From the IMG/VR virus record IMGVR_UViG_3300042883_000326, positions 1-30,368 of that record: 30,368 nucleotides of DNA. One strand, written 5' to 3'. Source of the DNA: a virus. The notes beneath the pieces were generated by a model. The model was not told the DNA's origin, did not search any database, and saw nothing but the letters and a program-made list of their open reading frames with translations. Positions 6,611 through 27,081 of this stretch are shown here, in pieces. The position numbers and the translations under genes were made by a program. The first letter of the stretch is position 1. Each line of letters begins with the position of its first letter.

Positions 6611-6656
6611 TATGACAATTTTATGACAATTAAATACAATATTACTTTTACATTTG
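6611..6656 (+). promoter_or_regulatory. Promoter A: double TATGACAATT + 17 nt + TACATTTG
   Basis: Repeats at 6611-6620 and 6622-6631 (11-bp pitch), 17-nt spacer, then TACATTTG at 6649-6656, which fits the Bacteroidota -7 consensus TANNTTTG. The same layout with identical spacing occurs at 17159-17204 and 27036-27081. It drives the plus-strand operon starting at 6683 through a 26-nt A-rich leader. Confidence 0.75.
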
Positions 6657-6682
6657 ATTCATAAACAAAAACAAAAAACGAC

Positions 6683-6838
6683 ATGAAAAATTACACAATC
6701 GCATTTATGGACAATGATTATAATGACCTTATAATTAAGAAAGTTCAATTCAATAATTTAAAAGAAGTCAAAGCTTTTGCTAAAGAAATTTTAGCGAACC
6801 TTTGCGATAATGACATCACTAACTTTAGAATTTACTAA
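6683..6838 (+). CDS. Small unknown protein, first gene of plus-strand operon
   Basis: A 51-residue ORF starting at the first ATG after promoter A. It encodes MKNYTIAFMDNDYNDLI followed by a likely helix (NNLKEVKAFAKEILANL). No membrane segment or known motif. The leader ends AAAAACGACATG, nearly the same as before the helicase (24152) and DnaA-like (25360) genes, which supports this start. The stop is one base before the next ATG. The function is unknown; small proteins in a separate early-type operon are often host-takeover or anti-defence factors, but nothing here shows that. Confidence 0.75.
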   Translation: MKNYTIAFMDNDYNDLIIKKVQFNNLKEVKAFAKEILANLCDNDITNFRIY

Positions 6839-6839
6839 C

Positions 6840-6959
6840 ATGGAAATATTAGCTTTTATTTTTTGCGCAGTACCTATTTTATTTGTACTTTTATTCGCAA
6901 CCGCAGTTCACTATTTTATGGAAACACTTAAAAAACACGACAATGAGAAATCTATTTGA
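6840..6959 (+). CDS. Small single-pass membrane protein
   Basis: A 39-residue ORF, second in the plus-strand operon. Residues about 3-25 (ILAFIFCAVPILFVLLFATAV) form one strong transmembrane segment; the tail HYFMETLKKHDNEKSI is polar and probably cytoplasmic. It overlaps the next start by 17 nt. Function unknown: it could act at the host membrane (superinfection exclusion or signalling) or be a small regulator. It lies outside the lysis cassette. Confidence 0.65.
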   Translation: MEILAFIFCAVPILFVLLFATAVHYFMETLKKHDNEKSI

Positions 6960-7161
6960 AAGACTAAAGCCAGAGCATATTGAAAAGCTTAAAGAATCAC
7001 AAACTTTATACCCATCAACTATTCCAAACTTATTTTTGGAATTAGAATTGAATACTTTTTGGGCAGACTTGACTTATTCTTGTGTATTTACTTTACTAAG
7101 TTATTTAGATATTTACGATTATTCACCTTCTACAATAGAAAATTTATTTGATAATGACTAA
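6943..7161 (+). CDS. Unknown small acidic protein
   Basis: A 72-residue protein. I chose ATG 6943 because longer versions lack a good start and would cover the whole membrane-protein gene. It begins MRNLFERLKPEHIEKLKESQ and reads as a helical protein with acidic, aromatic-rich stretches (LELELNTFWADLTYS, LSYLDIYDYSPSTIENLF). No motif recognised. It overlaps the next gene by 8 nt, so all four genes of this operon are translationally packed. Confidence 0.75.
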   Translation: MRNLFERLKPEHIEKLKESQTLYPSTIPNLFLELELNTFWADLTYSCVFTLLSYLDIYDYSPSTIENLFDND

Positions 7162-7435
7162 ATTAATCGACAAAATAGAAAATATTTATTTAGATAAATT
7201 TTATGCACTACCAGAGTGCGAAATGAAAACTAAAGCTTTACACGCTTTAAATAATGAAACAAGTTTTGGGTGGTTAGGTGGCGATATAGCCGACTACCTT
7301 GAAGATAATTTACTAAGTGAAGAAGAACACCCTTTTATTTTAGACTTGCTTAAAACGTACGACAATCGTTCTAGTGGCTCAAGTCTTTGCAATGGTGAAG
7401 GTGGTATAAACATAAAAAGTGGGTGGGGTTTATAA
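7154..7435 (+). CDS. Unknown small protein, last gene of plus-strand operon
   Basis: A 93-residue protein from ATG 7154; a TTG six bases upstream is less likely. It begins MTKLIDKIENIYLDKFYALPECEMK and has a helical body (GDIADYLEDNLLSEEEHPFILDLLKTY), with a flexible Gly/Ser-rich end. No known family recognised. Its stop codon lies in the loop of the terminator hairpin at 7420-7445, so the gene and the end of the transcript coincide. Confidence 0.75.
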   Translation: MTKLIDKIENIYLDKFYALPECEMKTKALHALNNETSFGWLGGDIADYLEDNLLSEEEHPFILDLLKTYDNRSSGSSLCNGEGGINIKSGWGL

Positions 7436-7445
7436 TTCCCACCCA
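7420..7445. terminator. Bidirectional terminator between convergent operons
   Basis: TGGGTGGG (7420-7427) pairs with CCCACCCA (7438-7445) around a 10-nt loop that contains the TAA stop of the last plus-strand gene. TTTCTTATTT follows on the plus strand. On the minus strand the stem is followed by CTTTTTATG. It lies between the plus operon and the minus-strand virion genes. Confidence 0.8.
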
Positions 7446-7453
7446 TTTCTTAT

Positions 7454-7966
7454 TTAATCTATTAATGCAGCAATAATTGAAGAAGTAACTTCAGGCGAAA
7501 GAGCTTTCTCTTGACCACTAAATGTTAATTCGTAACCTGAACGGTCACCAGTTGCAACACCAGAAGCAGCAGTTCCAGCAGTGATGTCTAAACCTCCCGC
7601 TTTACCTAGCATCCAATACTTACCGTTTTTATCTTCAGCAATAGCGATAAGGCTATTTTGTGCCAAAAGTAAAATCTCGTTACGTGTGTTAGCTTGCAAC
7701 TTGTTTAAAATTACGGTCAATTCTTGAGCGTAAAAGATTGTACCGTTTTGTACGGAAGCTGTAATCGTTTCTGTAAAAGAAGATGTTTCTTTTATCAAGT
7801 CGTATTTATAGAAGAATTTTCCAACCGCTAAAGTTATTGCAGTAACAACACCAGCTACTTCAGTTGTGGCAGTTACGTTTCCTTGCTCTATAAATAAAAC
7901 TGATTTTAAACCTCCGAGCGACGATTTACAATCGTAAATGTACCCTTGCGTTAATGCACATGACAT
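7454..7966 (-). CDS. Probable major tail (tube) protein
   Basis: A 170-residue protein just downstream of the major capsid gene and separated from it by a hairpin terminator. It begins MSCALTQGYIYDCKSSLGG and carries LIKETSSFTETITASVQNGT near the centre, a pattern I associate with an abundant conserved protein of Bacteroidota siphophages. Its beta-rich composition and lack of membrane segments fit a tube subunit. The tube assignment is inference from size, composition and position; a capsid-decoration role is the main alternative. Confidence 0.6.
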   Translation of the reverse strand: MSCALTQGYIYDCKSSLGGLKSVLFIEQGNVTATTEVAGVVTAITLAVGKFFYKYDLIKETSSFTETITASVQNGTIFYAQELTVILNKLQANTRNEILLLAQNSLIAIAEDKNGKYWMLGKAGGLDITAGTAASGVATGDRSGYELTFSGQEKALSPEVTSSIIAALID

Positions 7967-7979
7967 ATATTTGAGAATT

Positions 7980-8010
7980 AAAAAAGGGTAGGCAGTTTAT
8001 CCACCTACCC
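7980..8010 (-). terminator. Hairpin with T-tract after major capsid gene (partial terminator)
   Basis: On the minus strand GGGTAGG and CCTACCC (8010-8004 and 7992-7986) form a stem with an 11-nt loop, followed by TTTTTT. The next gene starts only 14 nt further on, with no room for a full promoter, so this probably lowers rather than ends transcription and sets a high capsid-to-downstream ratio. Confidence 0.8.
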
Positions 8011-8035
8011 TCTTTGGTTAAAAATTAATTATTAA

Positions 8036-8989
8036 TTAAGCAACGCCACCTTCTTGCCAGTAAACGATTTCAGTTGGGAAAGCATATTGAACTCCCATCT
8101 TAAATTCAGCAACGAAACGCATTTCGTCAGCTTCCTTCGCGTAGAACAATTCAAATCTTTCTTCTTCGTTTAACAAATCAACACCTAAATAAAGGTTTGA
8201 CATTCTAGTTGCGATAAGCTTGTCAGTTCCGTTCAAACCGTTTACAGCGATTAGCTTTACGCTAGTTCCCGGGATAACGATTTCGAAATCAACTGATTCA
8301 GCTGCGTAATGGAAAAGATTTGCAGCCTTCAATGCAACTGTGTACATTCTGAAAGCATCCATTCCCGCGAAGATAACAACGTCACCATTTGAAACGATGT
8401 CAGCAGGTATCAAAGTGTAAACTTCATCAACAGCAGCGATAATAGTGCTTGTAGTCAATGCAGCTACGTTACCAGGATTACCATCGATAACACCCGCAAC
8501 TGGCGCACCAGCAGGAGCTATGAGCTTCAAAAGACCATCAAATTTATTTAACTGTGCATTCAAAGACGTAGTATCACCTTGCCACAAACCAACTTCTAGA
8601 GCTTCACCAATTACAGCGATTTTCTTTGAAGTGTACTCATCAGCAAATGGCATGTAATCGTACATTGAACCAGCTCTCAAAGCCTTTTGTGTATACTTAG
8701 CCTCAAATGACTTAGGACAAATAGACTCATTTACTTTAATCTTACCTGGAGTTAATGCTCTTTGTGTGAAAGCAGTTGTGCCACTTGAGCTAAATCCACA
8801 AGTTCCACCTGCTTGGAATACAGCATCGGTTTCCATAAGGTTAATTTTTTCGGAGGACTTGATACCTACCTGCACGTTTCCAGCTGCTTCGATTAATTTA
8901 GCAGTCTTTGGCGCGAATACTAGAGATGTAGCAAGTTGCTGCTCGTTCTCTTTTACATAATTGGTTAAACCAGTTAAATCTAAAGCCAT
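8036..8989 (-). CDS. Major capsid protein, HK97-fold type
   Basis: A 317-residue protein of the length and composition of Bacteroidota phage capsid proteins. It starts MALDLTGLTNYVKENEQQLA, has a Gly/Thr-rich loop region, a long helix-like stretch (FADEYTSKKIAVIGEALEVG, likely spine helix) and a C-terminal beta region ending PTEIVYWQEGG. It should assemble the icosahedral shell together with the portal. Upstream lie a scaffold candidate and an XkdF-like protease, the usual head-gene order. A partial terminator follows it. I infer the fold from family likeness. Confidence 0.8.
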   Translation of the reverse strand: MALDLTGLTNYVKENEQQLATSLVFAPKTAKLIEAAGNVQVGIKSSEKINLMETDAVFQAGGTCGFSSSGTTAFTQRALTPGKIKVNESICPKSFEAKYTQKALRAGSMYDYMPFADEYTSKKIAVIGEALEVGLWQGDTTSLNAQLNKFDGLLKLIAPAGAPVAGVIDGNPGNVAALTTSTIIAAVDEVYTLIPADIVSNGDVVIFAGMDAFRMYTVALKAANLFHYAAESVDFEIVIPGTSVKLIAVNGLNGTDKLIATRMSNLYLGVDLLNEEERFELFYAKEADEMRFVAEFKMGVQYAFPTEIVYWQEGGVA

Positions 8990-8995
8990 GTTTTT

Positions 8996-9565
8996 TTAGT
9001 TTTTAATTGTTTGAAAAATGTTTTGTAATTTTTTAAAGCTATCCGATTTTACGTTTTTGCTTTGTGCAAGAAATGTATTTTTCGGTGCTTGTGTTTCTGG
9101 AGCGGATTCGATTGTTGCAAAAGCTTCCATGAATTCAATTAGCTTTTTAGTAACCTCATTCAATGAACTTACTTTAGTTTCAATCTCGGACATCTTAGAA
9201 TTAAAAGAATCGCTAATCTCAAGAAACTTCGCATCGTAATTAAATGCTTCCTCTTTTGATTGCTCAACCTCAACCTCAACAGATACCTCTTCCTCTTCTA
9301 CCATTTTAACCTCGGCAATTACGCCCGGCTCGGCTACGATTACTACCGTGCCATCTTCTAGTTCATGCTCGCCAACTGGTGCTGGAATTTCTCCTTCTTC
9401 TGTAACAACTGAAATTAAACCGCCAACTTCTAATTTGTCGAACTTAACGATTGTGCCATCGGCTAGAACGCCTTCAGCAAATTCAGTTACCACTTCTGGA
9501 GTATTCACAACCTCGTCGGAAAACAATAAGCTTTTGATTTGTTCTAATGCTTCCTTTGCTTTCAT
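8996..9565 (-). CDS. Candidate capsid scaffolding protein
   Basis: A 189-residue, very acidic protein (Glu/Val-rich stretch around residues 85-105) followed by a predicted coiled coil (ISDSFNSKMSEIETKVSSLNEV) and a basic C-terminus (KNVKSDSFKKLQNIFQTIKN). That shape, with an acidic/helical body and a basic tail that could touch the capsid, matches scaffolding proteins. It sits exactly between protease and major capsid genes, six bases upstream of the latter. A repeated G-x-L-x-DGT-x-V motif (GVLADGTIVKF; HELEDGTVVIV) recurs twice and is unexplained. Function inferred from shape and context. Confidence 0.65.
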   Translation of the reverse strand: MKAKEALEQIKSLLFSDEVVNTPEVVTEFAEGVLADGTIVKFDKLEVGGLISVVTEEGEIPAPVGEHELEDGTVVIVAEPGVIAEVKMVEEEEVSVEVEVEQSKEEAFNYDAKFLEISDSFNSKMSEIETKVSSLNEVTKKLIEFMEAFATIESAPETQAPKNTFLAQSKNVKSDSFKKLQNIFQTIKN

Positions 9566-9614
9566 ACTTTTTGATTAATAATAATTATATATAATTGGAT
9601 TGATTTTATGCAAC

Positions 9615-10202
9615 TTAAATTTCAGCGATTCGCAATATCTCTTTTATCTTTTCAAGCATTATATCTTCTTTTTTTACGATGTCTGAATATCCAAAAATAC
9701 CTTCTACGCTAAAGCCTTGAAATTCGCCTGACTTTACCTTTGCCCAAATGTCCGCGTTATCTACTTTATAGCTTCCGAACCAAGACCCGTCTTTTGCATC
9801 TTCAAAACCTTTGATAGGCATTTTACCCATCTCTTTATTTACTAGCCATGATTCAAACATCGTCACGCCTTGCACCGCCTTATCTGGATTGTGCATCTCG
9901 TTTACATTTGATTGATAGCCACGCTTAAAAAACTTTTCTGCTATTTGCTGAATAGTTCCTGAATCGAAAACTACATAGTGTTCGCCAAATTCTTCATTAT
10001 TACGATAAATTGGAACGTCTGCTAACATCAATGCACCTGATAAAATTTGTTTATCTTCGCTAATAACCTCAAACTTTAAACGCTCGTTAAAAGCTAAGAA
10101 GTTTTTCTGAATAGCGGGTCTATCTACTAGAGCAATATAATCAACTTCGCTATCGTCGGACATATCCGAATTGATAATTAATTTGTAAATTGGTAAGTCC
10201 AT
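9615..10202 (-). CDS. XkdF-like prohead protease (peptidase S78_2 type)
   Basis: A 195-residue protein starting MDLPIYKLIINSDMSDDSEV. The segment VDYIALVDRPAIQKNFLAF is the usual opening of XkdF-type proteins. The likely catalytic region contains NEMHNPDKAVQGVTMFESWLV, with a His in MHN and a Ser in ESW; GEFQGFSVEGIF follows. Such proteases cut scaffold and capsid proteins after prohead assembly. Placement directly ahead of scaffold and capsid genes supports this. The catalytic residues are suggested by family likeness, not proven. The C-terminal helix (EDIMLEKIKEILRIAEI) may be an assembly tail removed by self-cleavage. Confidence 0.75.
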   Translation of the reverse strand: MDLPIYKLIINSDMSDDSEVDYIALVDRPAIQKNFLAFNERLKFEVISEDKQILSGALMLADVPIYRNNEEFGEHYVVFDSGTIQQIAEKFFKRGYQSNVNEMHNPDKAVQGVTMFESWLVNKEMGKMPIKGFEDAKDGSWFGSYKVDNADIWAKVKSGEFQGFSVEGIFGYSDIVKKEDIMLEKIKEILRIAEI

Positions 10203-10215
10203 ATCTTTAAATATA

Positions 10216-11931
10216 TTAAATTGTTGCAGCTGCCTTTATTTTGTTAATTCTATCTTGTGAATCTGTGATGTCTGTTTCTACGACGAAAGCTTTTATCGCT
10301 TGTTGGTTTTGTACGTTCACGTTTGCAGTTCCTAATGATTGAGTTTGTGTCACGTTAATACCTGATTGAATAGGTGCTTGAGCTGAAGCAGTGCTAAAGC
10401 TTTGTGGACTTCCACCACCCGGAATAGAACCACCACCCCCACCGCCCGGCACTTTCACAGACATAATACTTTTGACCGCCTTGAATCCTGTAACGGAAGC
10501 AGCTAAGACCGCTGGAATAGCAGCAGGGAATCCTAATTTAACACCCGCAGAAATACCTAAGTACGTATTAATCAAAGCTTGTGCAACTGCTAAAGCCTTA
10601 CCAGCTGCCGTTTCCTTACCAGCTAAGTCCGCTAATTGTCCAGCCGTACTTGACACCGCTGTTAAAAGTTCAATCTCAGCTTGTGAAGCTCTAGTTTTTA
10701 TTTCTAAATCTGTTTTTGCATTTTCTTGAAACTTAGCATAGGTTTGTGCGTTAATAGATACCGCCTTTGCTTGTGTTGATAAATCAAGTCCTATTTTCTT
10801 TTCAGATGAAGCCTTTAAAAAAGCATCGTTTTCATTATCTAATTCTTTAATTAATCCTAAACGCTTTGCTTCTTTGTCTTTTATTTCTTGTTGTTCTTTC
10901 TCATAAGCAGCGACCCTAAGACCACCAATTCTAAGAAGCTCGGCTTCGTCTTTTGCTTTCTTATCCGCAATTTCCTTTTCTCTAATTGCTTTTCTATCAG
11001 CGACCCTTTTTTCCTCTTCAGTTTTTAGCCTTGCGGTTTCTTCTGCATCAATTACTTTCTTTTGATTTTTTAAATCTTCAAAGTTTTTTAAATCTTCGCC
11101 ACGCAATCCCTTTTCTGATTTGTACTTTGCTCTTAATACGTTTAAATCATTATCTGCTAATTGTTTAGATAGATTTGCGATTTCAGATTCTTTGCCACCT
11201 TGAGCTTTTAATAAATCAATACGCCTTTTAATTGCTTCGTTAGCTGTTTTATTACTCCCTGCTAATTTATCATAAGCACGTGACGCTTCACTTGTAGCAC
11301 CTACAAAATCGGTTACTTGCTCAACTAGTTTACCGATAAATTCACCAACTTTTGCAAGTCCTGGAATTAAATTTAATACTACTTTTTTAACGGTATCAAA
11401 ATTAGCTATCAATAAACCAATAGCCACAACGGCAGCACCTATTCCAGTGGCTATAATTGCACCCTTTAAGGTGGTGAACGCAGTGATTACATTCTTTTTA
11501 ATTACAACCGCTAAGTTAGTGAAGGCGTCTTTTGATTCTAAAACACTATTTAAGCCTTCAGATAATGCCAAAGCACTTTGCACCTTTAGTAATTGCTTTT
11601 CAAGCTCAGCGCTTTCAGTACCGAATAAACCTATTGCACCCTGAACACCTGCAAAACCACCCGCAACGCCTTGCAAAGTTTGCGAAAACGCTTTAAATTT
11701 AGCATCTGGATTTAAGGCATCGACTCTATCTTTGAAATCCCCGACTTCATCCCTTAGATTTGCAACCTTTTGCTGTGCTTCGATTGCTTCTTTCGAGGTA
11801 TCGCCAAACTTTCTAGATAGATTTAAAGCTTCCTGTGTGGCTTCCCTTAATTCGGTTTTTATAGACTTAACAGCCTTTTCGGTTTGGCTTGTGTCGGTTG
11901 TTATCTTAAACGCTACTGGTTCTATTGCCAT
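10216..11931 (-). CDS. Tail tape measure protein
   Basis: A 571-residue protein with the classic layout. It has an N-terminal coiled coil (TEKAVKSIKTELREATQEAL onward), a hydrophobic segment near residues 145-190 (ITAFTTLKGAIIATGIGAAV, GLLIANF), a long Lys/Glu/Ala-rich helical middle, a second hydrophobic Ala/Gly-rich region (AVAQALINTYLGISAGVKLG) and a Gly/Ser/Gln-rich C-terminus. Tape measures set tail length and are ejected to help DNA cross the envelope. At this length the tail would be fairly short, roughly 85 nm if 0.15 nm per residue applies. It is unusual that this gene follows the two large tail-tip proteins and precedes the head genes. Confidence 0.85.
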   Translation of the reverse strand: MAIEPVAFKITTDTSQTEKAVKSIKTELREATQEALNLSRKFGDTSKEAIEAQQKVANLRDEVGDFKDRVDALNPDAKFKAFSQTLQGVAGGFAGVQGAIGLFGTESAELEKQLLKVQSALALSEGLNSVLESKDAFTNLAVVIKKNVITAFTTLKGAIIATGIGAAVVAIGLLIANFDTVKKVVLNLIPGLAKVGEFIGKLVEQVTDFVGATSEASRAYDKLAGSNKTANEAIKRRIDLLKAQGGKESEIANLSKQLADNDLNVLRAKYKSEKGLRGEDLKNFEDLKNQKKVIDAEETARLKTEEEKRVADRKAIREKEIADKKAKDEAELLRIGGLRVAAYEKEQQEIKDKEAKRLGLIKELDNENDAFLKASSEKKIGLDLSTQAKAVSINAQTYAKFQENAKTDLEIKTRASQAEIELLTAVSSTAGQLADLAGKETAAGKALAVAQALINTYLGISAGVKLGFPAAIPAVLAASVTGFKAVKSIMSVKVPGGGGGGSIPGGGSPQSFSTASAQAPIQSGINVTQTQSLGTANVNVQNQQAIKAFVVETDITDSQDRINKIKAAATI

Positions 11932-15224: not shown

Positions 15225-15225
15225 G

Positions 15226-15885: not shown

Positions 15886-15886
15886 C

Positions 15887-16659: not shown

Positions 16660-16693
16660 TATTGTTTAAATATAATGTAAATAAAAAAAAGAC

Positions 16694-16903
16694 TTACCGA
16701 GTAGGCAAATCTTTAAAGTCATTAGGGTCGTTATCTTTTCTGAACTTCCGCCAGTCTGGTGATATCGTAATCAAACCACCGCTATCGATGTAGTCCTTTA
16801 GATATTGTTTAAATGCTTCAGGGTCATTCTTTGCTATTTCCTTTATAGCTATTATCTGACCGCCTTGCATTGAATCGAAAAAATTAAAAGCTTTATCTTT
16901 CAT
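16694..16903 (-). CDS. Small unknown protein upstream of tail chaperone
   Basis: A 69-residue protein, MKDKAFNFFDSMQGGQIIAIKEIAKNDPEAF followed by a polar C-terminus with KFRKDNDPNDF. No membrane segment or family recognised. A good -7 element (TATATTTG) ends four bases before the ATG, so its mRNA would be leaderless or nearly so. A 9-bp-arm inverted repeat lies just upstream and could repress it. A structural or regulatory role at the head of the virion operon is possible, but nothing shows which. Confidence 0.7.
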   Translation of the reverse strand: MKDKAFNFFDSMQGGQIIAIKEIAKNDPEAFKQYLKDYIDSGGLITISPDWRKFRKDNDPNDFKDLPTR

Positions 16904-16907: not shown

Positions 16908-16915
16908 CAAATATA
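16908..16915 (-). promoter_or_regulatory. -7 element TATATTTG of a very short-leader promoter
   Basis: Matches TANNTTTG and ends four bases before the ATG at 16903. No TATGACAATT array lies upstream at the spacing seen in promoters A-C; instead there is the inverted repeat at 16920-16951. Confidence 0.55.
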
Positions 16916-16919
16916 CAAT

Positions 16920-16951: not shown

Positions 16952-16973
16952 TTATCTTTTTATTTATTTATAA

Positions 16974-17138
16974 TTATGATTGTATTTTCTTAATTGCTAA
17001 CAAATAACTTTTTTTATTTTTATAAGAAAATTGAATCATGTATCCATCTTCTGAATAATAACTTTTATAAAATTTATTATCTATTTGAGTAAATGTAAAA
17101 ATAGTTCCTTCTTTTTCTATTTTGATTTGATTTGTCAT
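16974..17138 (-). CDS. Small unknown protein, first gene behind promoter B
   Basis: A 54-residue ORF beginning MTNQIKIEKEGTIFTFTQID and ending in a Lys-rich stretch (YKNKKSYLLAIKKIQS). It starts 20 bases downstream of the -7 element of promoter B. Basic, with no membrane segment. About 60 AT-rich bases separate it from the next unit. It is the only gene between the large terminase and the promoter-proximal part of the virion operon. No function recognised. Confidence 0.65.
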   Translation of the reverse strand: MTNQIKIEKEGTIFTFTQIDNKFYKSYYSEDGYMIQFSYKNKKSYLLAIKKIQS

Positions 17139-17158
17139 ATCTTTCTTTGTTTGTTAAT

Positions 17159-17204
17159 CAAAGATAATGCAAAGCACCTATTCAATTGTCATAGAATTGT
17201 CATA
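17159..17204 (-). promoter_or_regulatory. Promoter B: double TATGACAATT + 17 nt + TATCTTTG
   Basis: On the minus strand TATGACAATT lies at 17204-17195 and 17193-17184 (11-bp pitch), then 17 nt, then TATCTTTG at 17166-17159. Both decamers are perfect. Same architecture as promoters A and C. Positioned to drive 17138 and probably the virion genes downstream, starting inside the gap after the large terminase. Confidence 0.75.
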
Positions 17205-17215
17205 AAGCAAATTAT

Positions 17216-18961: not shown

Positions 18962-18962
18962 A

Positions 18963-20100: not shown

Positions 20101-20456
20101 TACTTTCTTGATTTACGCCCTCTTCTTTTAGGCACTTGTTTGTTCACATCTTCAGGCTTAAAGTCATTTGTAAACGTAGCTTCTACATTAGTAGTACTTT
20201 GTATTGATTCTGCAAACGCTTCGATAGGTTCTATATAACTATCGTAATTAACGCTAAGATATATCCTTTGAATCATTTCCGCCACGCAAGACATACACCA
20301 CTTATTCACAAAGAATTTATCATCTACTTCCTGTTTATAAATAGCTTCAAGCTCTAAGATAGTAACCTCGTTTAAGTTCTTGATAAACCCGGCATCGCGC
20401 AATGAAACCCAGTGTTCTTTATATTTATCAAGTGTTTTTTTTGTAAGATAGTTCAT
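20100..20456 (-). CDS. Unknown protein with basic C-terminus
   Basis: A 118-residue protein: helical N-terminal half (LTKKTLDKYKEHWVSLRDAG), a WCMSCVAEMIQRIYLSVNY segment with two Cys three apart near residue 54, an acidic linker and a strongly basic end (KQVPKRRGRKSRK). The tail suggests nucleic-acid binding. I recognise no family. It overlaps the membrane-protein gene upstream by 4 nt and the next gene by one base. Confidence 0.7.
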   Translation of the reverse strand: MNYLTKKTLDKYKEHWVSLRDAGFIKNLNEVTILELEAIYKQEVDDKFFVNKWCMSCVAEMIQRIYLSVNYDSYIEPIEAFAESIQSTTNVEATFTNDFKPEDVNKQVPKRRGRKSRK

Positions 20457-20752
20457 ATAAATTTTTTAAATAATACAGCTACAATACTCGCAGCGAAAGC
20501 AATCATCAAAGCTACAAGCATTATATAATTAAAATATAAAGCAGATAGCAAAGCTACCCAAAAGCTCAAGCAATACCCACAGTCAAAAGGTTTTAAGCGT
20601 AAAGGTGTCTTAATAAAATCGTAACCCTTTAGTTTGCTACCGATATTAAAACTATCAAACAACCAACGTGAAAACATTTGTGGTATCATTGAGATTTCGG
20701 CAAAGCTAAAACCTAAACAAGCACTACCGATAATTAAAAATAATTCATTCAT
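20453..20752 (-). CDS. Membrane protein, DUF1360-like
   Basis: A 99-residue protein with a hydrophobic N-terminal segment (LFLIIGSACLGFSFAEISMI) and a C-terminal one (FWVALLSALYFNYIMLVALM onward, about 45 hydrophobic residues, possibly two passes). Between them is PFDCGYCLSFWVAL, with a C-x-x-C pair next to F-W, which resembles DUF1360 proteins found in phages and bacteria. Function unknown. The cysteine pair at the membrane edge may bind metal or be redox-active. It overlaps the sigma-like gene by 8 nt. Confidence 0.65.
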   Translation of the reverse strand: MNELFLIIGSACLGFSFAEISMIPQMFSRWLFDSFNIGSKLKGYDFIKTPLRLKPFDCGYCLSFWVALLSALYFNYIMLVALMIAFAASIVAVLFKKFI

Positions 20753-21264
20753 ATTCTTTTACATTTAATTTAACATTATTTATAGCATTCTTTACTCCGT
20801 TTGCGATTGTGCGTATCGGAATACCAGTCTTTAAACTCACATTCTTATACGTACCTAGTTGTAAATATAACTTTAAGACTTCACATTCAAAGAAGCGAAG
20901 TTCTGATATGCTCTTTTCGACCGCCTGAATTCTAGCTTCTATCTTATCATACGCATTATCGTCTTGCAATTCAAATAAATGATTTGCAAATAGTATATGG
21001 TCACTGTTTTCGATTAGTTCGTCGTCAATTATATTATCGCTTATTCTTTGATTCTTAAAATTCTGATAATAAAACTTTGAATTTTTAGACCTAAATTGGT
21101 TTAAACCTATGCGAACAATAAAGTATTTTCGTCTGGTCGTACTCGCAAATCGTTAAAAATACATCTTGACGAAGTTCTTCCCACCATTCACCAGCGATAT
21201 TCTTAAAGAATGTTATTATATCCTTTTGCGTATAATATTCGCTTATAACCTTATTATAATTCAT
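20745..21264 (-). pseudogene. Sigma-70-like factor interrupted by a one-base frameshift
   Basis: From ATG 21264 the frame encodes 57 residues (MNYNKVISEYYTQKDIITFF, ELRQDVFLTICEYDQTK) and stops at 21091. Removing one base from the AAAA run (plus-strand T4 at 21126-21129) continues it as KYFIVRIGLNQFRSKNSKFY to a C-terminal HTH (LQLGTYKNVSLKTGIPIRTI), 172 residues in all. The layout resembles short sigma-70-like phage proteins: region-2-like helices, then region-4-like HTH. The second part has no ATG start of its own near the break. It may be a sequencing error, a true mutation or a +1 programmed shift. If functional, it could direct the phage's conserved promoters. Confidence 0.7.
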
Positions 21265-21640
21265 TGTGCATATACTTATCTATTATTTCTATTGAGTTCG
21301 TTACACCAACGCCAAACGAAGCGAAAGCACCCTCTCTATTTAGGTAGTCAAGATAATTCTTTTGTTTAGTTAAATGCTCGTTAGTTTTCAACATACCATT
21401 AAGCTTAAAAGGTGATTCGACTTTTAACTCTAAAACTAGCATTGAATATTTACCATTATTGTGAAAAATAAATAAGTCGGGCGTTCCTTGACCTGCTTGA
21501 CCTAGCTTCTTTGCTTTACGTGCTAAGTAAATCGGAAGCCTTGCACCTGAAAGATAGTTTGCCATAAACCGAACTTGTGGATATTGCATCTTCAAATAAT
21601 TAACCACACTTAACTGAATTAAATCTTCTTTGTTTTGCAT
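21254..21640 (-). CDS. VRR-NUC nuclease (PD-(D/E)xK type)
   Basis: A 128-residue stand-alone VRR-NUC domain. Catalytic residues are visible as GTPDLFIF (D55) and LVLELKVE (E71, K73), with the conserved LSGARLP and KKLGQAGQGTPD segments before. Such phage nucleases are thought to act on branched DNA or in recombination/replication. Genes for annealase, helicase and methyltransferase in the same operon agree. It overlaps the sigma-like gene by 11 nt and abuts its upstream neighbour. Confidence 0.85.
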   Translation of the reverse strand: MQNKEDLIQLSVVNYLKMQYPQVRFMANYLSGARLPIYLARKAKKLGQAGQGTPDLFIFHNNGKYSMLVLELKVESPFKLNGMLKTNEHLTKQKNYLDYLNREGAFASFGVGVTNSIEIIDKYMHNEL

Positions 21641-21907
21641 TTATTTCTTTTTAAATTGTTCAAGACAATCATTAAATGAATATAATCCTTCTTTACCTTC
21701 AAAATAAGCTACTTCTAAATCTTCCTCACTATACATTCTTTCACCTTGATATTTAGCACCATTTATAAAAGCATTTTTACAAACCCTTCTTGGATGTGCA
21801 ATACCATATTCAAAACTATCTACATACTTTTCAGCAGCTTCTTCAATTGTTTCTTGTGTGAGCCCATTAAGCCCATTATGAGCCATTTGTTTTTCTTTGT
21901 TTTGCAT
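21641..21907 (-). CDS. Small unknown protein
   Basis: An 88-residue protein. It starts MQNKEKQMAHNGLNGLTQET; the Met at position 8 is an alternative start. It contains TIEEAAEKYVDSFEYGIAH and AFINGAKYQGERMYSEEDL. This combination (short helix, 'F-x-x-GA-x-Y', then 'YSEEDL-x-x-A') is common in small phage proteins of Bacteroidota with no known role. The first five residues (MQNKE) equal those of the next gene, which may reflect a shared translation-initiation sequence. Likely an early-operon accessory protein. Confidence 0.75.
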   Translation of the reverse strand: MQNKEKQMAHNGLNGLTQETIEEAAEKYVDSFEYGIAHPRRVCKNAFINGAKYQGERMYSEEDLEVAYFEGKEGLYSFNDCLEQFKKK

Positions 21908-21909
21908 GA

Positions 21910-22170
21910 CTATTTATTTATCAATTCATTCCAATTATTATCCAGTTGTTCTTCAAAATCATTCTCAAGAAGTTCTTTGTTTTCGATATTACGCTCCATC
22001 GTACCCATAGCTTTACGGTGCGCATTGATTAGCTTTTCAAACTTATGCTGTAACTTCCCTGCATCTTCATTATTCAAGACTGATAATTCATGAACTGCGA
22101 CTTCTAAATTCTTAATCGACATTTTAGAATGAAGATAAGATAATATTAATGAGTTTTCTAGTGGTGTCAT
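21910..22170 (-). CDS. Unknown helical protein
   Basis: An 86-residue, mostly helical, mildly acidic protein beginning MTPLENSLILSYLHSKMSIK, with a heptad-like stretch (KLQHKFEKLINAHRKAMGTM) and an acidic end. No family recognised. It overlaps the upstream coiled-coil gene by 4 nt. The two may form a complex, but only adjacency supports this. Confidence 0.7.
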   Translation of the reverse strand: MTPLENSLILSYLHSKMSIKNLEVAVHELSVLNNEDAGKLQHKFEKLINAHRKAMGTMERNIENKELLENDFEEQLDNNWNELINK

Positions 22171-22490
22171 ATACTTGAATTTAATTTTTTAACTTCCTTT
22201 TCTAAATCGTTTACATATAAAAGCAAAGTTCCTATCTGCATTCGCATTGTTTCTAATTCAATCGCTGCGAGTTCGTACTTTGCAAACATCTTGCTATAAG
22301 CATTCATTGCCTGTTCAACATATATTTGAGCTTCGTTAATTTCATTATCAAAACCTTTTAAATCTGTTAAGGCTCGATTAATTATTTGCAAGTCTAAAGC
22401 TACTTTTAAAAGGCTTAGCCTTTCTTCGTCGAAGAACTTGTAAGCGTTTAACTTATTTTGTAAGTCGTTTATTAATTCTTTGTAATTCAT
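22167..22490 (-). CDS. Coiled-coil protein, unknown function
   Basis: A 107-residue protein, helical throughout: MNYKELINDLQNKLNAYKFF, ALDLQIINRALTDLKGF, then a C-terminal coiled coil (AAIELETMRMQIGTLLLYVN, DLEKEVKKLNSSI). No catalytic motif. Three bases separate it from the methyltransferase gene stop. It may act as a small adaptor within the replication operon; this is only inference. Confidence 0.7.
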   Translation of the reverse strand: MNYKELINDLQNKLNAYKFFDEERLSLLKVALDLQIINRALTDLKGFDNEINEAQIYVEQAMNAYSKMFAKYELAAIELETMRMQIGTLLLYVNDLEKEVKKLNSSI

Positions 22491-22493
22491 ATC

Positions 22494-23159
22494 TTAAAAT
22501 AGTTTAGTTTGTGCCATGTGATTGTTAATTCTTTTCATTGCTGAATCAAAATACTCTTTGTCTAATTCACAAGCTGTTAAATCAAATTTATAATCATGAC
22601 AAGCTATTGCAATACTGCCAGAGCCTAAATGAGTGTCTAATATTTTATCTCCTTGTTTTGCGTATTTGTCAAGTAGCCATTTGTAAAGTGATGCTGGTTT
22701 TTGAGTTGGGTGAATTCTATTTTCTTTGTTTTTCATATTGCCTTGCAACATTCCAGCCCATCTAAATTCAAATTTTCTAACTGCTGTCTTATAGTTAGTC
22801 CAAGCAAGTTCACAATCTGCAAAGTCATTATCCCCATTTTGTTTATCCCATACAACCCAACTGCTGCTATTTGAGTTTGGTATATCTTGAATAAAATGAT
22901 TTGCGCCCCAAATAATAGTATTTTTAGATACTCTTAATAATTCAATAAAATATTCTTTTTTAGGTGTTTCTTTATCCCAATTTTTAGAAGTGTATAATTT
23001 TGGCTTTGTTTCTTTACCTCTTGAATGGTTTTTGGCTCCATCCTCATTAATTCCATAAGGCGGGTCTACAATAGCTAAATCAAAATAATTATCAGAATAA
23101 CGAGCCATTAGCTCCATATTGTCCTCGTTTGTTATTTGTATTTTATTTGTGCTTTTCAT
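22494..23159 (-). CDS. Orphan DNA methyltransferase (N6-adenine/N4-cytosine, beta class)
   Basis: A 221-residue enzyme with motif IV DPPYG at 32-36, a target-recognition region in the middle, RIHPTQKP (about 149-156; motif X-like) and SAM-binding motif I DTHLGSGS at 175-182. The order IV before I is the beta arrangement. It transfers a methyl group from S-adenosylmethionine to DNA; DPPY makes adenine more likely than cytosine. No restriction enzyme of a matched kind is adjacent, so it probably guards phage DNA against host cutting or marks it. The recognition site cannot be read from sequence. Confidence 0.9.
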   Translation of the reverse strand: MKSTNKIQITNEDNMELMARYSDNYFDLAIVDPPYGINEDGAKNHSRGKETKPKLYTSKNWDKETPKKEYFIELLRVSKNTIIWGANHFIQDIPNSNSSSWVVWDKQNGDNDFADCELAWTNYKTAVRKFEFRWAGMLQGNMKNKENRIHPTQKPASLYKWLLDKYAKQGDKILDTHLGSGSIAIACHDYKFDLTACELDKEYFDSAMKRINNHMAQTKLF

Positions 23160-23162
23160 ATC

Positions 23163-24152
23163 TTAAAAATCAAAGTCTTTACCAAATGTACTACTTAAAA
23201 CGGATATATTGCCCGGCTCTTTATTTAATTTCTCTTTAGCTTCGTATTCAAGACCAAAGTAAATCACGCCCTCGATTTCTTCATAAAAGCGATTTTTCTT
23301 CCAATCCCAAAATAGTTTGCACATTCCTAGTTTTGCCGAACCTTTAGGCTTTGCCTTTGCGATAATAACGTGAGTTTCATTTTCTTTGTAAGGTTGCCCA
23401 TCTTTATCGTTAAACCCAAATGGAGGTCGCCACAAGATTATAAAAGCCATTGCTTTACGGAAGAATGATTGACCCCCTGCGGATTGTCTAGGATGCGGAG
23501 GTGGATAATAAGTCACACCGTTTTCTGTAATCGGTTGCTGGTCTTGTGGGTGCATACAAATAAAGATATGCTTTTCTTCTTTTTTTGCGTAACGTCTAAG
23601 CTTACCGACTGCGTCCTCGATATATAAGTCTTGACGACTGCCAAACTCTGCCATGTTATGCTTAATTTCGTTGTAAGGGTCAAACAAAATATTGTCAATC
23701 TTGATACGATTTTCAGCTTCTAAGATTTTAACCTGACTTATAATGTCATCAAAGCTAAATGAATTTTCGTCGTTATCTACGATATAAAATTTATCACTTA
23801 AAAAAGCAATAGCGTTGTAAATTTCTGATTCACTACAAGCGTTCACGTCACTTGCAAAGAATGGTTTTCTAATGTATTTACTTATAAGCTCTTTCGCTAG
23901 GTCTTTATAATCCCCCGTTTCTGGTGAAAATATTACGTGCTTTTCGTTGTGCTTAATTGAAAGGTTTAAAAGTATCTCTAAGTTAAATTCTGTTTTGCCC
24001 GAGTGTGGTGATGCAAGTATAAAAGTCATTGACCCTTTTTTCTTTGTGTATAAAGCATCTAAAGATTTAAAACCAACGTATTGACCTCGTTGTATTCCTG
24101 ACTTGTGAAAGTCTAAGATTTCGTTTTCAAATTGAATTAAGTTTTTTATCAT
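23163..24152 (-). CDS. DnaB-type replicative helicase-like ATPase
   Basis: A 329-residue RecA-fold ATPase without the DnaB N-terminal domain. Walker A is ASPHSGKT (47-54), the same form as DnaB's A-x-P-x-x-GKT. A catalytic-Glu candidate lies in FSPETG (E78), Walker B in DNILFDPYNE (D158), and HPQDQ and RQSAGGQSFFRKA (about 224-236) follow the helicase layout. It probably unwinds DNA at the phage fork, loaded by the DUF4373 protein encoded just upstream. The leader contains two copies of ACAAACGAC before the ATG. Confidence 0.8.
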   Translation of the reverse strand: MIKNLIQFENEILDFHKSGIQRGQYVGFKSLDALYTKKKGSMTFILASPHSGKTEFNLEILLNLSIKHNEKHVIFSPETGDYKDLAKELISKYIRKPFFASDVNACSESEIYNAIAFLSDKFYIVDNDENSFSFDDIISQVKILEAENRIKIDNILFDPYNEIKHNMAEFGSRQDLYIEDAVGKLRRYAKKEEKHIFICMHPQDQQPITENGVTYYPPPHPRQSAGGQSFFRKAMAFIILWRPPFGFNDKDGQPYKENETHVIIAKAKPKGSAKLGMCKLFWDWKKNRFYEEIEGVIYFGLEYEAKEKLNKEPGNISVLSSTFGKDFDF

Positions 24153-24168
24153 GTCGTTTGTCGTTTGT

Positions 24169-24176
24169 CAAATGTA
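24169..24176 (-). promoter_or_regulatory. Possible internal -7 element before helicase gene
   Basis: TACATTTG on the minus strand, overlapping the region just past the DUF4373 gene's stop, 16 bases before the helicase ATG. It fits TANNTTTG and equals the -7 of promoter A, but no TATGACAATT array or clear -33 is upstream, so it is weak evidence. Confidence 0.35.
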
Positions 24177-24177
24177 A

Positions 24178-24804
24178 TCAATTAACTGGTATATTAAAAC
24201 TTAAAGTATTATTTGTGTTTATTTTATTTTCATCTCTAAACCATACGCCCCTCATTTTTTGTTTCCAGTTTAAAACCTTCTTACCATTGCTATCGACCCA
24301 ACCAGATTCATTGTAATATTTATAAGCATTCTTTGCAGCATCGGCTTTAAATCCATTCTCAAGAAAGTACTTAATAACTTCATCAATATTTGGCATATAT
24401 ATATTTACTTTACTTTTCTTTACTTTAGGAGTGTTACGAACGTTTTCTGAATGCGTTACATTTTCTGTAACTACTTGTTTTTCACGCCATTGTGAAATTC
24501 TTTTCGCGTTTTTTTCTTTTTTTATCTGGTACTTTTGTGCAAAGTTTAGTAATTGTTTGTTGAAAGTTTCACCATTGTTTGACGAAATCAAGTCTATTTC
24601 TTCCATAAAATCCCAGCACTTTTCAAGTCTTTTACCTACTTTACATTGATGTTTTAAGACGTTGGTTTTGATAGGTTTTTCTTGACGTGCCATCTTTTCA
24701 ATCAAAGTATAGAACAATCCAAGACCTTCATATCCAAAGTTTATAAATAGCTCCGAGATTTTTTCATCTTCAAAACTTGCGGTATCATGTAGGAAGTATT
24801 TCAT
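24178..24804 (-). CDS. DUF4373 (Lin1244/Lin1753-like) replisome organiser
   Basis: A 208-residue protein. The N-terminal winged-helix-like domain is typical: MKYFLHDTASFEDEKI, then GYEGLGLFYTLIEKMA. It ends with a DnaT/DnaD-like module (DAAKNAYKYYNESGWVDSNG, VLNWKQKMRGVWF). The family is thought to bind the phage origin and load the helicase, encoded next. The linker between the modules (residues 113-134, ENVTHSENVRNTPKVKKSKV) is encoded by DNA that recurs, imperfectly, in the noncoding region at 6381-6445. As in lambda O, an origin inside this gene is therefore possible. Confidence 0.85.
   Translation of the reverse strand: MKYFLHDTASFEDEKISELFINFGYEGLGLFYTLIEKMARQEKPIKTNVLKHQCKVGKRLEKCWDFMEEIDLISSNNGETFNKQLLNFAQKYQIKKEKNAKRISQWREKQVVTENVTHSENVRNTPKVKKSKVNIYMPNIDEVIKYFLENGFKADAAKNAYKYYNESGWVDSNGKKVLNWKQKMRGVWFRDENKINTNNTLSFNIPVN
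24403..24467. repeat. Genic partner of the 65-bp repeat at 6381-6445
   Basis: About 55 of 65 bases match 6381-6445 without gaps. Within the gene it covers residues 113-134 of the DUF4373 protein. It includes the direct elements GTTACGAAC and GCGTTACATTTT. Confidence 0.85.
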
Positions 24805-24805
24805 T

Positions 24806-25360
24806 TTAATAGTCGATTTTTTGAATTACAAATCTAGACAATTTTACTTGAGGTTTTCTCGTTGCGTTTAGAGTTTCTTTATTTAAGCTATAAAGATAAA
24901 ATTTAACAGCTCCTTTAGTTTTGTTTAAAATATCTGCGTAATAACTTACCGAGAAATCATTTGATAAGTTTGCTTTTATAAAGTCTTTGTCATCTTCTGA
25001 TAAGATACCTTTTGAAATAGGTCTGTCGCGCGTTACGGTGCGCTGTACGCCGTTAATTATATCGACCATAAAGTCATGCCTATATTTCATTCTTTTATCG
25101 GTACGAAGGCTGTAAAAGACTTTGTCAATTTGATAAATTATAGAGCTGTGATTTTGTAGTTTAAATTCTTTTGCGATTTGCACCATAGTCATTTTGTAAT
25201 GGTTGTACAAAAAGTATGAAACAAGTTGCCTTGCTTTTGTAACTTCACCAATACGTCTGTTAGTGGTGGTTAATAATTGATAAATATCATTTGAACTAAG
25301 CTTCTTAGATTCGTAAAGTTCTGATGCGTAATAGCATAATTTTAAAGTGTCTTGATTCAT
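24806..25360 (-). CDS. DnaA domain IV-like DNA-binding protein without ATPase
   Basis: A 184-residue protein. Residues about 43-81 (ARQLVSYFLYNHYKMTMVQI, then AKEFKLQNHSSIIYQIDKV) match the shape of DnaA domain IV, where NHSSIIYQI corresponds to the DnaA signature RDHTTVLHA. A second HTH-like region (SVSYYADILNKTKGAVKFYL) lies near residues 137-156. No Walker motifs are present, so it is not an initiator ATPase. It may bind DnaA boxes, compete with host DnaA or mark the phage origin. A terminator hairpin ends 12 bases before its ATG. Confidence 0.75.
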   Translation of the reverse strand: MNQDTLKLCYYASELYESKKLSSNDIYQLLTTTNRRIGEVTKARQLVSYFLYNHYKMTMVQIAKEFKLQNHSSIIYQIDKVFYSLRTDKRMKYRHDFMVDIINGVQRTVTRDRPISKGILSEDDKDFIKANLSNDFSVSYYADILNKTKGAVKFYLYSLNKETLNATRKPQVKLSRFVIQKIDY

Positions 25361-25371
25361 GTCGTTTGTAT

Positions 25372-25399
25372 AAAAAAAGGGAGGTTTTTACGCTCCCTT
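25372..25399 (-). terminator. Intrinsic terminator/attenuator before DnaA-like gene
   Basis: On the minus strand AAGGGAG and CTCCCTT pair around a 9-nt loop and run into a T tract (down to 25372). The next ATG is at 25360, leaving no room for a new promoter, so read-through or antitermination must supply the genes beyond. Confidence 0.85.
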
Positions 25400-25406
25400 G
25401 TTTGGT

Positions 25407-25604
25407 TTAAAATGCGTCCTCTGTGTTTACAGGCTTTAACTTTTTAGTTTTGCCTGTGTCATCACTTGCAACTTCTTCTTGCGTTGGCGTGAAAGTATCG
25501 ATTGCTTCCTTTACTAAAACGCTTTCTTCTAATTTAAGTGCGCCAACTGATTGAGCTTTTAAGGCTACCTGAACAAGTATGTTCAATGCTTCGTTTTCTG
25601 TCAT
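25407..25604 (-). CDS. Small unknown acidic protein
   Basis: A 65-residue protein: a helical first half (NEALNILVQVALKAQSVGALKL) followed by a flexible acidic and Lys-rich end (EVASDDTGKTKKLKPVNTED). I have seen similar small proteins after the SSB/annealase genes in Bacteroidota phages, without a function. It lies two bases beyond the SSB-like gene and directly before the terminator at 25372-25399, so it ends the recombination sub-operon. Confidence 0.75.
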   Translation of the reverse strand: MTENEALNILVQVALKAQSVGALKLEESVLVKEAIDTFTPTQEEVASDDTGKTKKLKPVNTEDAF

Positions 25605-25606
25605 GA

Positions 25607-25822
25607 TTAAAATGGTAAATCTGTTTTTGATTCTGTTAATTGTTCTGTTACTGGTGCAACGTAATCATTTACGTAGATATTGAAATCTGGTTGCTTCTCT
25701 TCTTTCTTGTAGCCATTTGCCCACATCGAATATCGAGTTCCATTAATTGCAAAGTTGATTACTTCGCCTTTTGCAGTGGTACGTTTCCACGCGCCAAAGC
25801 TTACTTTTTTTTCGTCTGTCAT
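25607..25822 (-). CDS. Small DNA-metabolism protein with SSB-like C-terminal tip
   Basis: A 71-residue protein from ATG 25822; a TTG three codons upstream is possible but weaker. It has a beta-rich body (VSFGAWKRTTAKGEVINFAI, RYSMWANGYKKEEKQPDFNI) and ends ESKTDLPF, close to the SSB tip DDDIPF that recruits partner proteins. With the ERF annealase next to it, a single-strand-binding or partner-recruiting role is likely. It is shorter than a normal SSB (about 110 or more), so a full OB fold is uncertain. Confidence 0.65.
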   Translation of the reverse strand: MTDEKKVSFGAWKRTTAKGEVINFAINGTRYSMWANGYKKEEKQPDFNIYVNDYVAPVTEQLTESKTDLPF

Positions 25823-25842
25823 AGTTTTCAAATTTATATAAT

Positions 25843-26427
25843 TTATTTGTTAAATTCAAGCTTTTTATTATTTATTAATTCTTTAAAGGTTGTATTTGTG
25901 TGAAACATTGGATAAGATGCCCAGATAGCTTTTAACTTATCTACATTATCGCAAACATTTGTTTCGGCTATTGCTATGTTAAGCAAGTTACTTAATTGCA
26001 CCGCTTCACCAGCTGAAATCTTTACAGGCTCTTTGTCGTTGTTATTCGTTGCATCGCTATCTTTTGTGTCATCAATAGCAAACATTCCATTTAAAGCGTA
26101 TTTACGTGCGTAACTAGAACACGCTCCAGTCACTTGCGAAGCATCCATTCCTTTTTTATTTTCTTCTTCACGTGCAAAACCATCTACTGAATATTTGTCT
26201 GTTCCGTCTGTGATATTTACCGAAGCTTTGATATAGTATCTATCACCTATGTTTATAATTTCATCCGTGATTGATAAGAACAAACCATGCTTTAATAGAT
26301 GCGGTTTAACTGCTTCAAGTATATCTTCGCATGAGCGGTACTTATATTTACCGAAGTTATTAGTTTGACCCTTTGGTGCTTTCAATTCGCTTTGAATTGT
26401 TACAAGCTTTTTAATTAGTTTTTCCAT
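25843..26427 (-). CDS. ERF-family single-strand annealing protein
   Basis: A 194-residue recombinase. The N-terminal ERF core is clear: KLVTIQSELKAPKGQTNNFG, then KYKYRSCEDILEAVKPHLLK (helix and strand), GLFLSITDEIINIGDRYYIK, and the family-typical region ASQVTGACSSYARKYALNGM ending in an acidic DDTKDSD segment. The C-terminal part is variable and helical. ERF proteins anneal single strands in phage recombination and repair, and often support circularisation or concatemer formation. Its partners here are the SSB-like protein just downstream and the VRR-NUC nuclease. Confidence 0.9.
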   Translation of the reverse strand: MEKLIKKLVTIQSELKAPKGQTNNFGKYKYRSCEDILEAVKPHLLKHGLFLSITDEIINIGDRYYIKASVNITDGTDKYSVDGFAREEENKKGMDASQVTGACSSYARKYALNGMFAIDDTKDSDATNNNDKEPVKISAGEAVQLSNLLNIAIAETNVCDNVDKLKAIWASYPMFHTNTTFKELINNKKLEFNK

Positions 26428-26430
26428 TTC

Positions 26431-26604
26431 TTATAAAATTACAAATTCTTTGTTTTCAAAATACCATTCTTCAGGTTCGTTAAATTCATTGGTAAATTCA
26501 ATTAATGAAAATTTAAACCATCGCTTTAAAATGATACCTGTTTTTCCTGTTGTTTGCACGTCAATCCCTTGCGGATTAGTTAATAATTTTACTTTGTTAT
26601 CCAT
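26431..26604 (-). CDS. Small unknown protein before ERF
   Basis: A 57-residue ORF: MDNKVKLLTNPQGIDVQTTG, KTGIILKRWFKFSLIEF and an acidic, aromatic end (NEPEEWYFENKEFVIL). No recognised family. Its stop lies four bases before the ERF start and it overlaps the upstream 42-residue ORF by 16 nt, so it fits the operon. The amino-acid composition (charged and aromatic, no low-complexity) supports a real product. Confidence 0.7.
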   Translation of the reverse strand: MDNKVKLLTNPQGIDVQTTGKTGIILKRWFKFSLIEFTNEFNEPEEWYFENKEFVIL

Positions 26605-26717
26605 AGCATTAATTTTTTAAAAGTTGTTTGTTTGTTTTGATTTGATTTAAAGATTATTTGTTCTTCATAAAGCCTAATATAATTAAGCTTTGATTTTTCT
26701 TGTGGTGTTAATTCCAT
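26589..26717 (-). CDS. Very small unknown protein
   Basis: A 42-residue ORF: MELTPQEKSKLNYIRLYEEQ, then IIFKSNQNKQTTFKKLMLW and a short end. A basic, helix-prone peptide; the opening resembles the start of small DNA-associated helices. It begins 17 bases after the double-hairpin element at 26734-26797, so that RNA structure could control it. Short and AT-rich; moderate confidence. Confidence 0.55.
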   Translation of the reverse strand: MELTPQEKSKLNYIRLYEEQIIFKSNQNKQTTFKKLMLWITK

Positions 26718-26733
26718 TTTAATTATTTTTTAC

Positions 26734-26797
26734 TGCCAAATCCTCATGCCTTGTGAGCTATGAGGTGGCAAATTCCTAACTTGCAGGAACAGGAATT
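26734..26797 (-). ncRNA. Double-hairpin RNA element in early operon leader
   Basis: Transcribed on the minus strand, the first hairpin pairs AATTCCT with AGGAATT (26797-26791, 26777-26771; 13-nt loop). The second directly adjoins it and pairs TGCCA+CCTCAT with ATGAGG+TGGCA (26770-26734), 11 bp with a 3-nt bulge and a 12-nt loop. No T tract follows, so it is not a terminator. It fills the gap between two genes and may act as a processing site, a translational switch or a small RNA. Confidence 0.55.
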
Positions 26798-26800
26798 ATT

Positions 26801-26995
26801 TTAATATCCTCTATTCATTAATTGAGATACTCTAATAGCAAAAGATTTTTCATTTTTGTAGATTCTAACCCATTTATTATTAAAGTTAATTATATGAGTA
26901 TTATCTCTAGAAATTGCATACCAATTATCAACTTCATTATTAAATGATAATATTCCTTTTTCGTTTCTTTGATTTAAAATTTCTTGAGTTGTCAT
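26801..26995 (-). CDS. Small unknown protein, first gene behind promoter C
   Basis: A 64-residue protein starting MTTQEILNQRNEKGILSFNN, then EVDNWYAISRDNTHIINF and a basic, beta-like end (KWVRIYKNEKSFAIRVSQL). No family recognised. It is the promoter-proximal gene of the early operon, about 40 bases past the -7 element of promoter C, so it should be among the first proteins made if that promoter is early. Regulatory or host-directed function is only inferred from this place. Confidence 0.75.
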   Translation of the reverse strand: MTTQEILNQRNEKGILSFNNEVDNWYAISRDNTHIINFNNKWVRIYKNEKSFAIRVSQLMNRGY

Positions 26996-27035
26996 GTTTG
27001 CAAGTTTTGTGCAATCCTTTATTGAATCGTTGAAA

Positions 27036-27081
27036 CAAATATAAGGTCATTGTACAAAAGAATTGTCATAGAAATGTCATA
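27036..27081 (-). promoter_or_regulatory. Promoter C: TATGACATTT/TATGACAATT + 17 nt + TATATTTG
   Basis: Repeats at 27081-27072 (one mismatch) and 27070-27061, 11-bp pitch, 17-nt spacer, then TATATTTG at 27043-27036. Same design as promoters A and B. It starts right behind the lysis-cassette terminator and drives the early region beginning at 26995. Confidence 0.75.

Follow-up and report, generated by a model that had tools for sequence, protein, structure and literature searches.

A tandem-decamer design shared by three promoters of a phage genome: a candidate operator for an OmpR/PhoB-type response regulator

The locus raises two questions: which protein recognizes three promoters that are built to one exact design, and what do these promoters drive? 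The window, i.e. the whole 30,368 bp virus record analyzed here, can be read as a near-complete genome in permuted order, and related contigs indicate that ~1.4 kb is absent between its right and left ends. It encodes a portal protein, an ERF recombinase and a DnaB-like helicase and looks like a Flavobacterium-type siphophage, a putative assignment for which the host evidence consists of similarity to Flavobacterium phage 11b (an 84% DNA match in the methylase gene) and the promoter type. A terminase search for prophage relatives in 398 genomes was empty; named phage and plasmid records gave chance matches only, and no named phage isolate with the motif was found among them.

In the shared design, the decamer TATGACAATT occurs twice at 11-bp pitch and is followed, after 17 nt, by TANNTTTG. 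A pattern search of the whole window at up to three mismatches returned exactly three matches, at 6611-6656 (+), 17204-17159 (-) and 27081-27036 (-), with 0, 0 and 1 mismatches (Table 1); this confirms the positions given in the earlier note and its count of five perfect decamers out of six, the exception being TATGACATTT in the last site. Shuffled sequence does not contain the motif as often: the mean was 0.00 matches in 100 dinucleotide shuffles. Single decamers are at chance level (62 found versus 72 expected at up to two mismatches), and the signal above chance is the tandem pair together with the -7 element, not the lone decamer. The decamer pair accompanies three of the 45 TAHHTTTG sites in the window, and the self-identity of decamers at pitch 11, 17 nt before TANNTTTG, is 10/10 on both strands in the real sequence and at best 8/10 in 60 shuffles.

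Table 1. Promoter elements, slot genes and candidate regulators in the window
Feature	Positions	Strand	Basis
Tandem decamers TATGACAATT-T-TATGACAATT of the plus-strand promoter	6611..6631	+	Pattern search; relatives
-7 element TACATTTG, 17 nt past the decamers; expected start ~6661	6649..6656	+	Numbering of PMC6847099
Tandem decamers TATGACAATT-C-TATGACAATT directly after the terminase gene	17184..17204	-	Pattern search; relatives
-7 element TATCTTTG; expected start ~17154	17159..17166	-	Pattern search
Tandem decamers TATGACATTT-C-TATGACAATT upstream of the early region	27061..27081	-	Pattern search; relatives
-7 element TATATTTG; expected start ~27031	27036..27043	-	Pattern search
Second 11-bp-pitch array TATCATGAAAC / TATGATGAAAG / TATCATGAAAA in the divergent region	6534..6566	+	Direct reading
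51-aa first gene of the plus-strand slot; no family found	6683..6838	+	Comparison with relatives
54-aa first gene of the post-terminase slot; other genes fill the slot in relatives	16974..17138	-	Comparison with relatives
64-aa first gene of the early slot	26801..26995	-	Comparison with relatives
Second -7-like element TATATTTG; 4 nt separate its end from the first gene of the virion operon (16694-16903), a conserved gene	16908..16915	-	Comparison with relatives
Sigma-like gene, frameshifted in the window	20745..21264	-	Relatives; weak sigma match (phrog_1740, 2.3e-4)
DnaA domain-IV-like protein, rival candidate for the binder	24806..25360	-	PF08299, 3.5e-8

The -7 elements TACATTTG, TATCTTTG and TATATTTG are of the Bacteroidota type, as the earlier note had it: all three agree with the Flavobacterium johnsoniae primary-sigma consensus TAHHTTTG (PMC6847099). 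In the numbering of that paper, in which the T is at -12 and the start lies 4-5 nt after the -7 element, the TATGACA units of the decamers span -50 to -33 with their centre at -41.5. The decamers as a whole occupy -50 to -30, and no conserved TTG or TTTG is present under them near -33, i.e. the repeats lie over the missing -33 element. A centre at -41.5 over the -33 region is the classical position of a class II activator.

A second array is found upstream of the 6611 site and in phase with it, its units starting at 6534, 6545 and 6556 (6611 = 6556 + 55). It is preceded by a perfect palindrome, TTTCACTAAA-G-TTTAGTGAAA, and palindrome and array together make up 6512-6566 (+). A related array is also present in the relatives G661 and G662, and a different one, of the TTGTTGAACAC type, is found at the same place in G663-G665.

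What do the promoters head? The earlier note assigned them to the plus-strand operon, the virion operon and the early operon. They do sit at the junctions of these operons. What immediately follows each of them, however, is a small variable gene, and in the relative G668 (locus L009) no such promoter precedes the virion operon. The first genes are among the least conserved in the genome and gave no Pfam match save one below threshold and none in PHROGs. The plus-strand first gene has a clear homologue in only one of nine relatives (G668) and is absent in G667, in which the next gene comes first; a 46% identical homologue of the early first gene lies behind the post-terminase promoter of L004/L005; and the post-terminase slot holds six different first genes in L003, L006, L008, L011, L012 and L013. 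L007, L009 and L010 lack the post-terminase cassette altogether, and their virion operon begins at the second -7-like element, which is conserved in these three loci. Because the first genes swap between relatives and the cassette is missing in L007, L009 and L010, we regard each promoter as the putative head of a slot for exchangeable accessory genes, from which transcription may continue into the operon. The plus-operon slot of G663-G666 (the region from 5983-6342 to 7454-7966 in the window) holds different small genes in each relative, one of them (in G664) being related to the early first gene of the window, located elsewhere in its genome.

The motif search that the earlier note proposed for related phages found the design again. 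Among the collected loci, 25 distinct copies of the tandem core precede a TAHHTTTG, and in 24 of them the distance from TATGACA to the -7 element is exactly 20 nt. TATGACA and the -7 element are fixed, with a spacer that is almost free to vary in its letters; the invariance of the heptamers is partly by construction since the search required them. An unbiased repeat scan before TANNTTTG in relatives singled out pitch 11 among pitches 8-14. The 6611 site is the same in L083/L087, and diverged versions are present in L090, L097, L099, G668 and G662. G662 (terminase 89% identical) has all three sites at homologous places, whereas G661 (terminase 92% identical) has none of them, its flanking genes being the same and its orthologous promoters, including that of the plus-operon, retaining the -7 element at the same place without decamers. 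The three sites are thus gained or lost as a set, which argues for one trans-acting factor; together with the spacing kept over diverged spacers, this lends good support to the shared regulator suggested in the earlier note. When gene content was compared among the relatives, no gene was found to separate motif-bearing from motif-free genomes by its presence in the former and absence from the latter.

Two further arrangements were seen in relatives. In the motif-free L018, L029, L035, L024 and L188-L189, the early and plus-operon promoters share TTGATNATCAA upstream and TTGCATT before the -7 element, which gives the impression of a swap of promoter type. In L324, which belongs to the 75% relatives, a box TATGACATTTCTATGACA lies near 10161, within the divergent region of the plus operon and in reverse orientation to the genes of that operon.

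The tandem core is also present in phage lineages outside the relatives of the window. The full design occurs in the group of the window, in a second siphophage group (L219, L223, L225), in the 32-kb phage G670 and in a 5.8-kb microvirus (L218), a single case in which the site is intergenic and has the same linker; the 61-kb phage G671 has the design with TACTATTG as its -7 element. In a further set of phages, the same 18-bp core is reversed, and the promoter that follows at a distance of 57 or 58 nt still has a TTG near -33. Some exact tandem cores without a -7 element correspond, in a phage group other than that of the window, to the coding end ...VIELS* of a YqaJ-like gene, with the box reversed relative to the next promoter. 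The reversed box, TATGACAATTCTATGACA, was seen in L309, L318, L321, L333 and L315, 57-58 nt before promoters of small genes, and in several of these loci it overlaps the last codons (VIELS*) of the YqaJ-like gene. The two arrangements suggest either an activator that may work from two positions or a different role of the box in the reversed set.

The geometry of the sites resembles that of known phosphate-control systems. As in Pho boxes, which have at least two units, they consist of direct repeats at 11-bp pitch in a fixed register over the -35/-33 region relative to the -10/-7 element, and as in PhoB class II promoters (E. coli PhoB, Bacillus PhoP) two 11-bp direct repeats cover the -35 region. 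The E. coli Pho box consensus is CTGTCATAWAWCTGTCAY; the reverse complement of the phage site, AATTGTCATAGAATTGTCATA, resembles it at ~15 of 18 positions. Unlike in E. coli PhoB promoters, the orientation of these putative PhoB sites relative to transcription is reversed, and unlike in PhoB class II promoters, no phosphate gene was recognized behind the phage promoters in the annotation of the window genes.

A closer parallel in orientation was found in the Flavobacteriales, where 11-bp repeats can be read upstream of pstS. A pattern derived from them, TTTACAATTNCTTAACA, had 11 matches in 198 genomes versus two for the reversed control; nine of the 11 stand 70-100 nt before pstS or porin-like genes, and two pstS cases adjoin a divergent regulator of the OmpR/PhoB type (with Pfam support for one). 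The porin O/P genes of larger genomes have the same kind of array. In these reconstructed phosphate promoters, T(A/T)ACA units end 9, 20, 31, 42 or 53 nt before the -7 element, an offset that leaves 9 modulo 11 for 29 of the 34 units. Ending at 20 and 31 nt, the units of the phage have the same pitch, register and orientation relative to TANNTTTG, a register match that alone is expected by chance in ~1 of 11 cases. The phosphate promoters contain four to five units of the TTAACA/TTTACA type and the phage promoters two of the TATGACA type, and the letters differ (TTAACA/TTTACA/GTAACA versus TATGACA), so that the phage sites do not share the letters of these phosphate boxes. The regular array at fixed register to TANNTTTG is seen in L264-L273 and L287-L295, and no description of it was found in the literature searched.

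Do hosts use the letters of the phage sites? The sequence TATGACAATTTTATGACA, identical to the core of the 6611 site, precedes 5'-nucleotidase genes in two Bacteroidota (G072 and G174), in G072 lying between the nucleotidase gene and a divergent gene for an OmpR/PhoB-family regulator, and TATGACATTTCTATGACA precedes a Na/Pi cotransporter gene in a Bacteriovoracaceae genome (L111). Identical or near-identical boxes before 5'-nucleotidase genes (L138, L140) and this cotransporter gene are few. The G072 box is not conserved across its order, and two other matches are a near-microsatellite and an unrelated intergenic site. TATGACA pairs are not enriched in 398 Flavobacteriales genomes (12 matches versus ~15 for the reversed pattern), and a further scan of host genomes with the phage letters gave 11 sites versus 9 for the control. 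The exact design had seven chance-like matches in 84,980 species, none of them titled Flavobacterium. No TATGACA boxes were found upstream of 5'-nucleotidases or TIGR02136 matches, part of this test being weak because many of its minus-strand loci were mis-oriented. Because the host matches are few and the host genomes are not enriched, a phosphate regulator is something that we infer and do not read from the hosts.

Which protein, then, binds the decamers? The best single explanation, which we hold tentatively and with somewhat less than even confidence, is an operator for a response regulator of the OmpR/PhoB type, probably an activator encoded by the host. We suggest that (i) one transcription activator has a two-unit operator at each site, (ii) this activator would bind head to tail as a dimer, (iii) it would cover -50 to -33, centred at -41.5, and replace the weak -33 contact, and (iv) it would bring RNA polymerase with the host primary sigma to the TANNTTTG element. 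Its gene would most likely be found in the host, PhoB or a near relative being the first choice, and among ~30 window proteins scanned there was no response-regulator, OmpR-type or Trans_reg_C match. This reading is favoured by the fixed 20-nt spacing, the 11-bp pitch, the gain or loss of the three sites as a set, the register shared with Flavobacteriales phosphate promoters, the boxes before host 5'-nucleotidase and Na/Pi cotransporter genes, and the recurrence of the tandem core in other phage lineages; the differing letters, the lack of enrichment in host genomes and the G072 box not being conserved in its order speak against it. The phage would thereby tie three small accessory-gene slots to a host regulator, possibly one that senses phosphate. 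A strict class II model leaves the reversed box, 57-58 nt before a promoter that keeps its TTG, unexplained.

Phage genes under the control of host PhoB have been described in cyanophages, by gel shift and expression for Synechococcus phage S-PM2d (PMC10976474) and, as cited there, for P-SSM2. That paper also cautions that Pho-box predictions in phages are not reliable. The promoters described here are similar in that they carry sites, in this case putative, for a host response regulator; they differ in the host phylum and in their letters, and our proposal is drawn from sequence.

A wider version, possible and rather doubtful, is that many Bacteroidota phages, unrelated to one another and comprising several tailed lineages and a microvirus, have acquired a Pho-box-like operator in class II and in reversed upstream arrangements, and that a host response regulator, possibly phosphate-sensing, sets the expression of small accessory genes in all of them. 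Alternatively, though we regard this as unlikely, the binder could be a host factor outside the OmpR/PhoB family, e.g. a nucleoid or stress regulator, or a regulator from a resident mobile element. The presence of the site in unrelated phages including a microvirus, which is not expected to bring a regulator of its own, is consistent with such a factor, as is the use of the box in two orientations, at 20 and at 57-58 nt; the head-to-tail 11-bp pair and the register of the phosphate promoters fit the OmpR/PhoB family better.

The decamers could also be bound by a DNA-binding protein of the phage that times the three slots, the best candidate being the DnaA domain-IV-like protein, and this too we consider unlikely. 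Its PF08299 match is above cut-off and is accompanied by a weak match to 'transcriptional regulator, D5-like', homologues occur in seven of 11 motif-bearing phage groups (A, B, C, D, F and H, and weakly G), the protein is only 47-52% identical to its counterparts in G661/G662 versus 86-90% for neighbouring genes, and the rarity of the site in host genomes favours a mobile regulator. However, G661, which lacks the motif, and G662, which has it, hardly differ in the recognition-helix region (ANHTSVLYAVNE versus ANHTSILYAVNE); the gene is present in all motif-free relatives; G670, G694, the portion of G696 that was searched and the microvirus gave no homologue; and the decamer, which reads TTATGACAA, is not a DnaA box (TTATNCACA). 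Phage lambda has an activator of its own, CII, for which TTGC-N6-TTGC direct repeats at 10-bp pitch flank the -35 element. The promoters described here resemble those of CII in having direct repeats about one helical turn apart at the -35 region, with a presumed activator bound, and differ from them in their letters and their 11-bp pitch, and CII is phage-encoded.

It is improbable that the decamers are repressor or temporal operators at which binding over -33 blocks the host polymerase until the factor is removed. The position over -33 would suit such a role, and close upstream of the 6611 site are the second array and the perfect palindrome. Against it, no TTG -33 element is left under the decamers. 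That the orthologous G661 promoters keep the -7 element without decamers does not separate an activator from a repressor. Recognition by the sigma-like gene product, one candidate named in the earlier note, is highly improbable and was rejected: intact homologues do give a weak sigma match, but the gene, a single 183-aa ORF in relatives, is frameshifted in the window by a ~40-nt deletion relative to all intact relatives, it is intact in the motif-free L035, L018, L022 and L031, so that no intact cognate sigma gene accompanies the motif, and the -7 element is of the host primary-sigma type. The deletion may be a real loss or an assembly error.

Promoter control in Bacteroidota phages is little described, and we found no account of it in the open-access literature; here, a concrete operator with fixed geometry recurs across phage lineages. 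The interchangeable slots behind one promoter type also provide a route to many uncharacterized genes of 50-65 aa. If the binder is a host response regulator, as we tentatively favor, then phage gene expression would be wired to host physiology, as is the case with cyanophages and phosphate.
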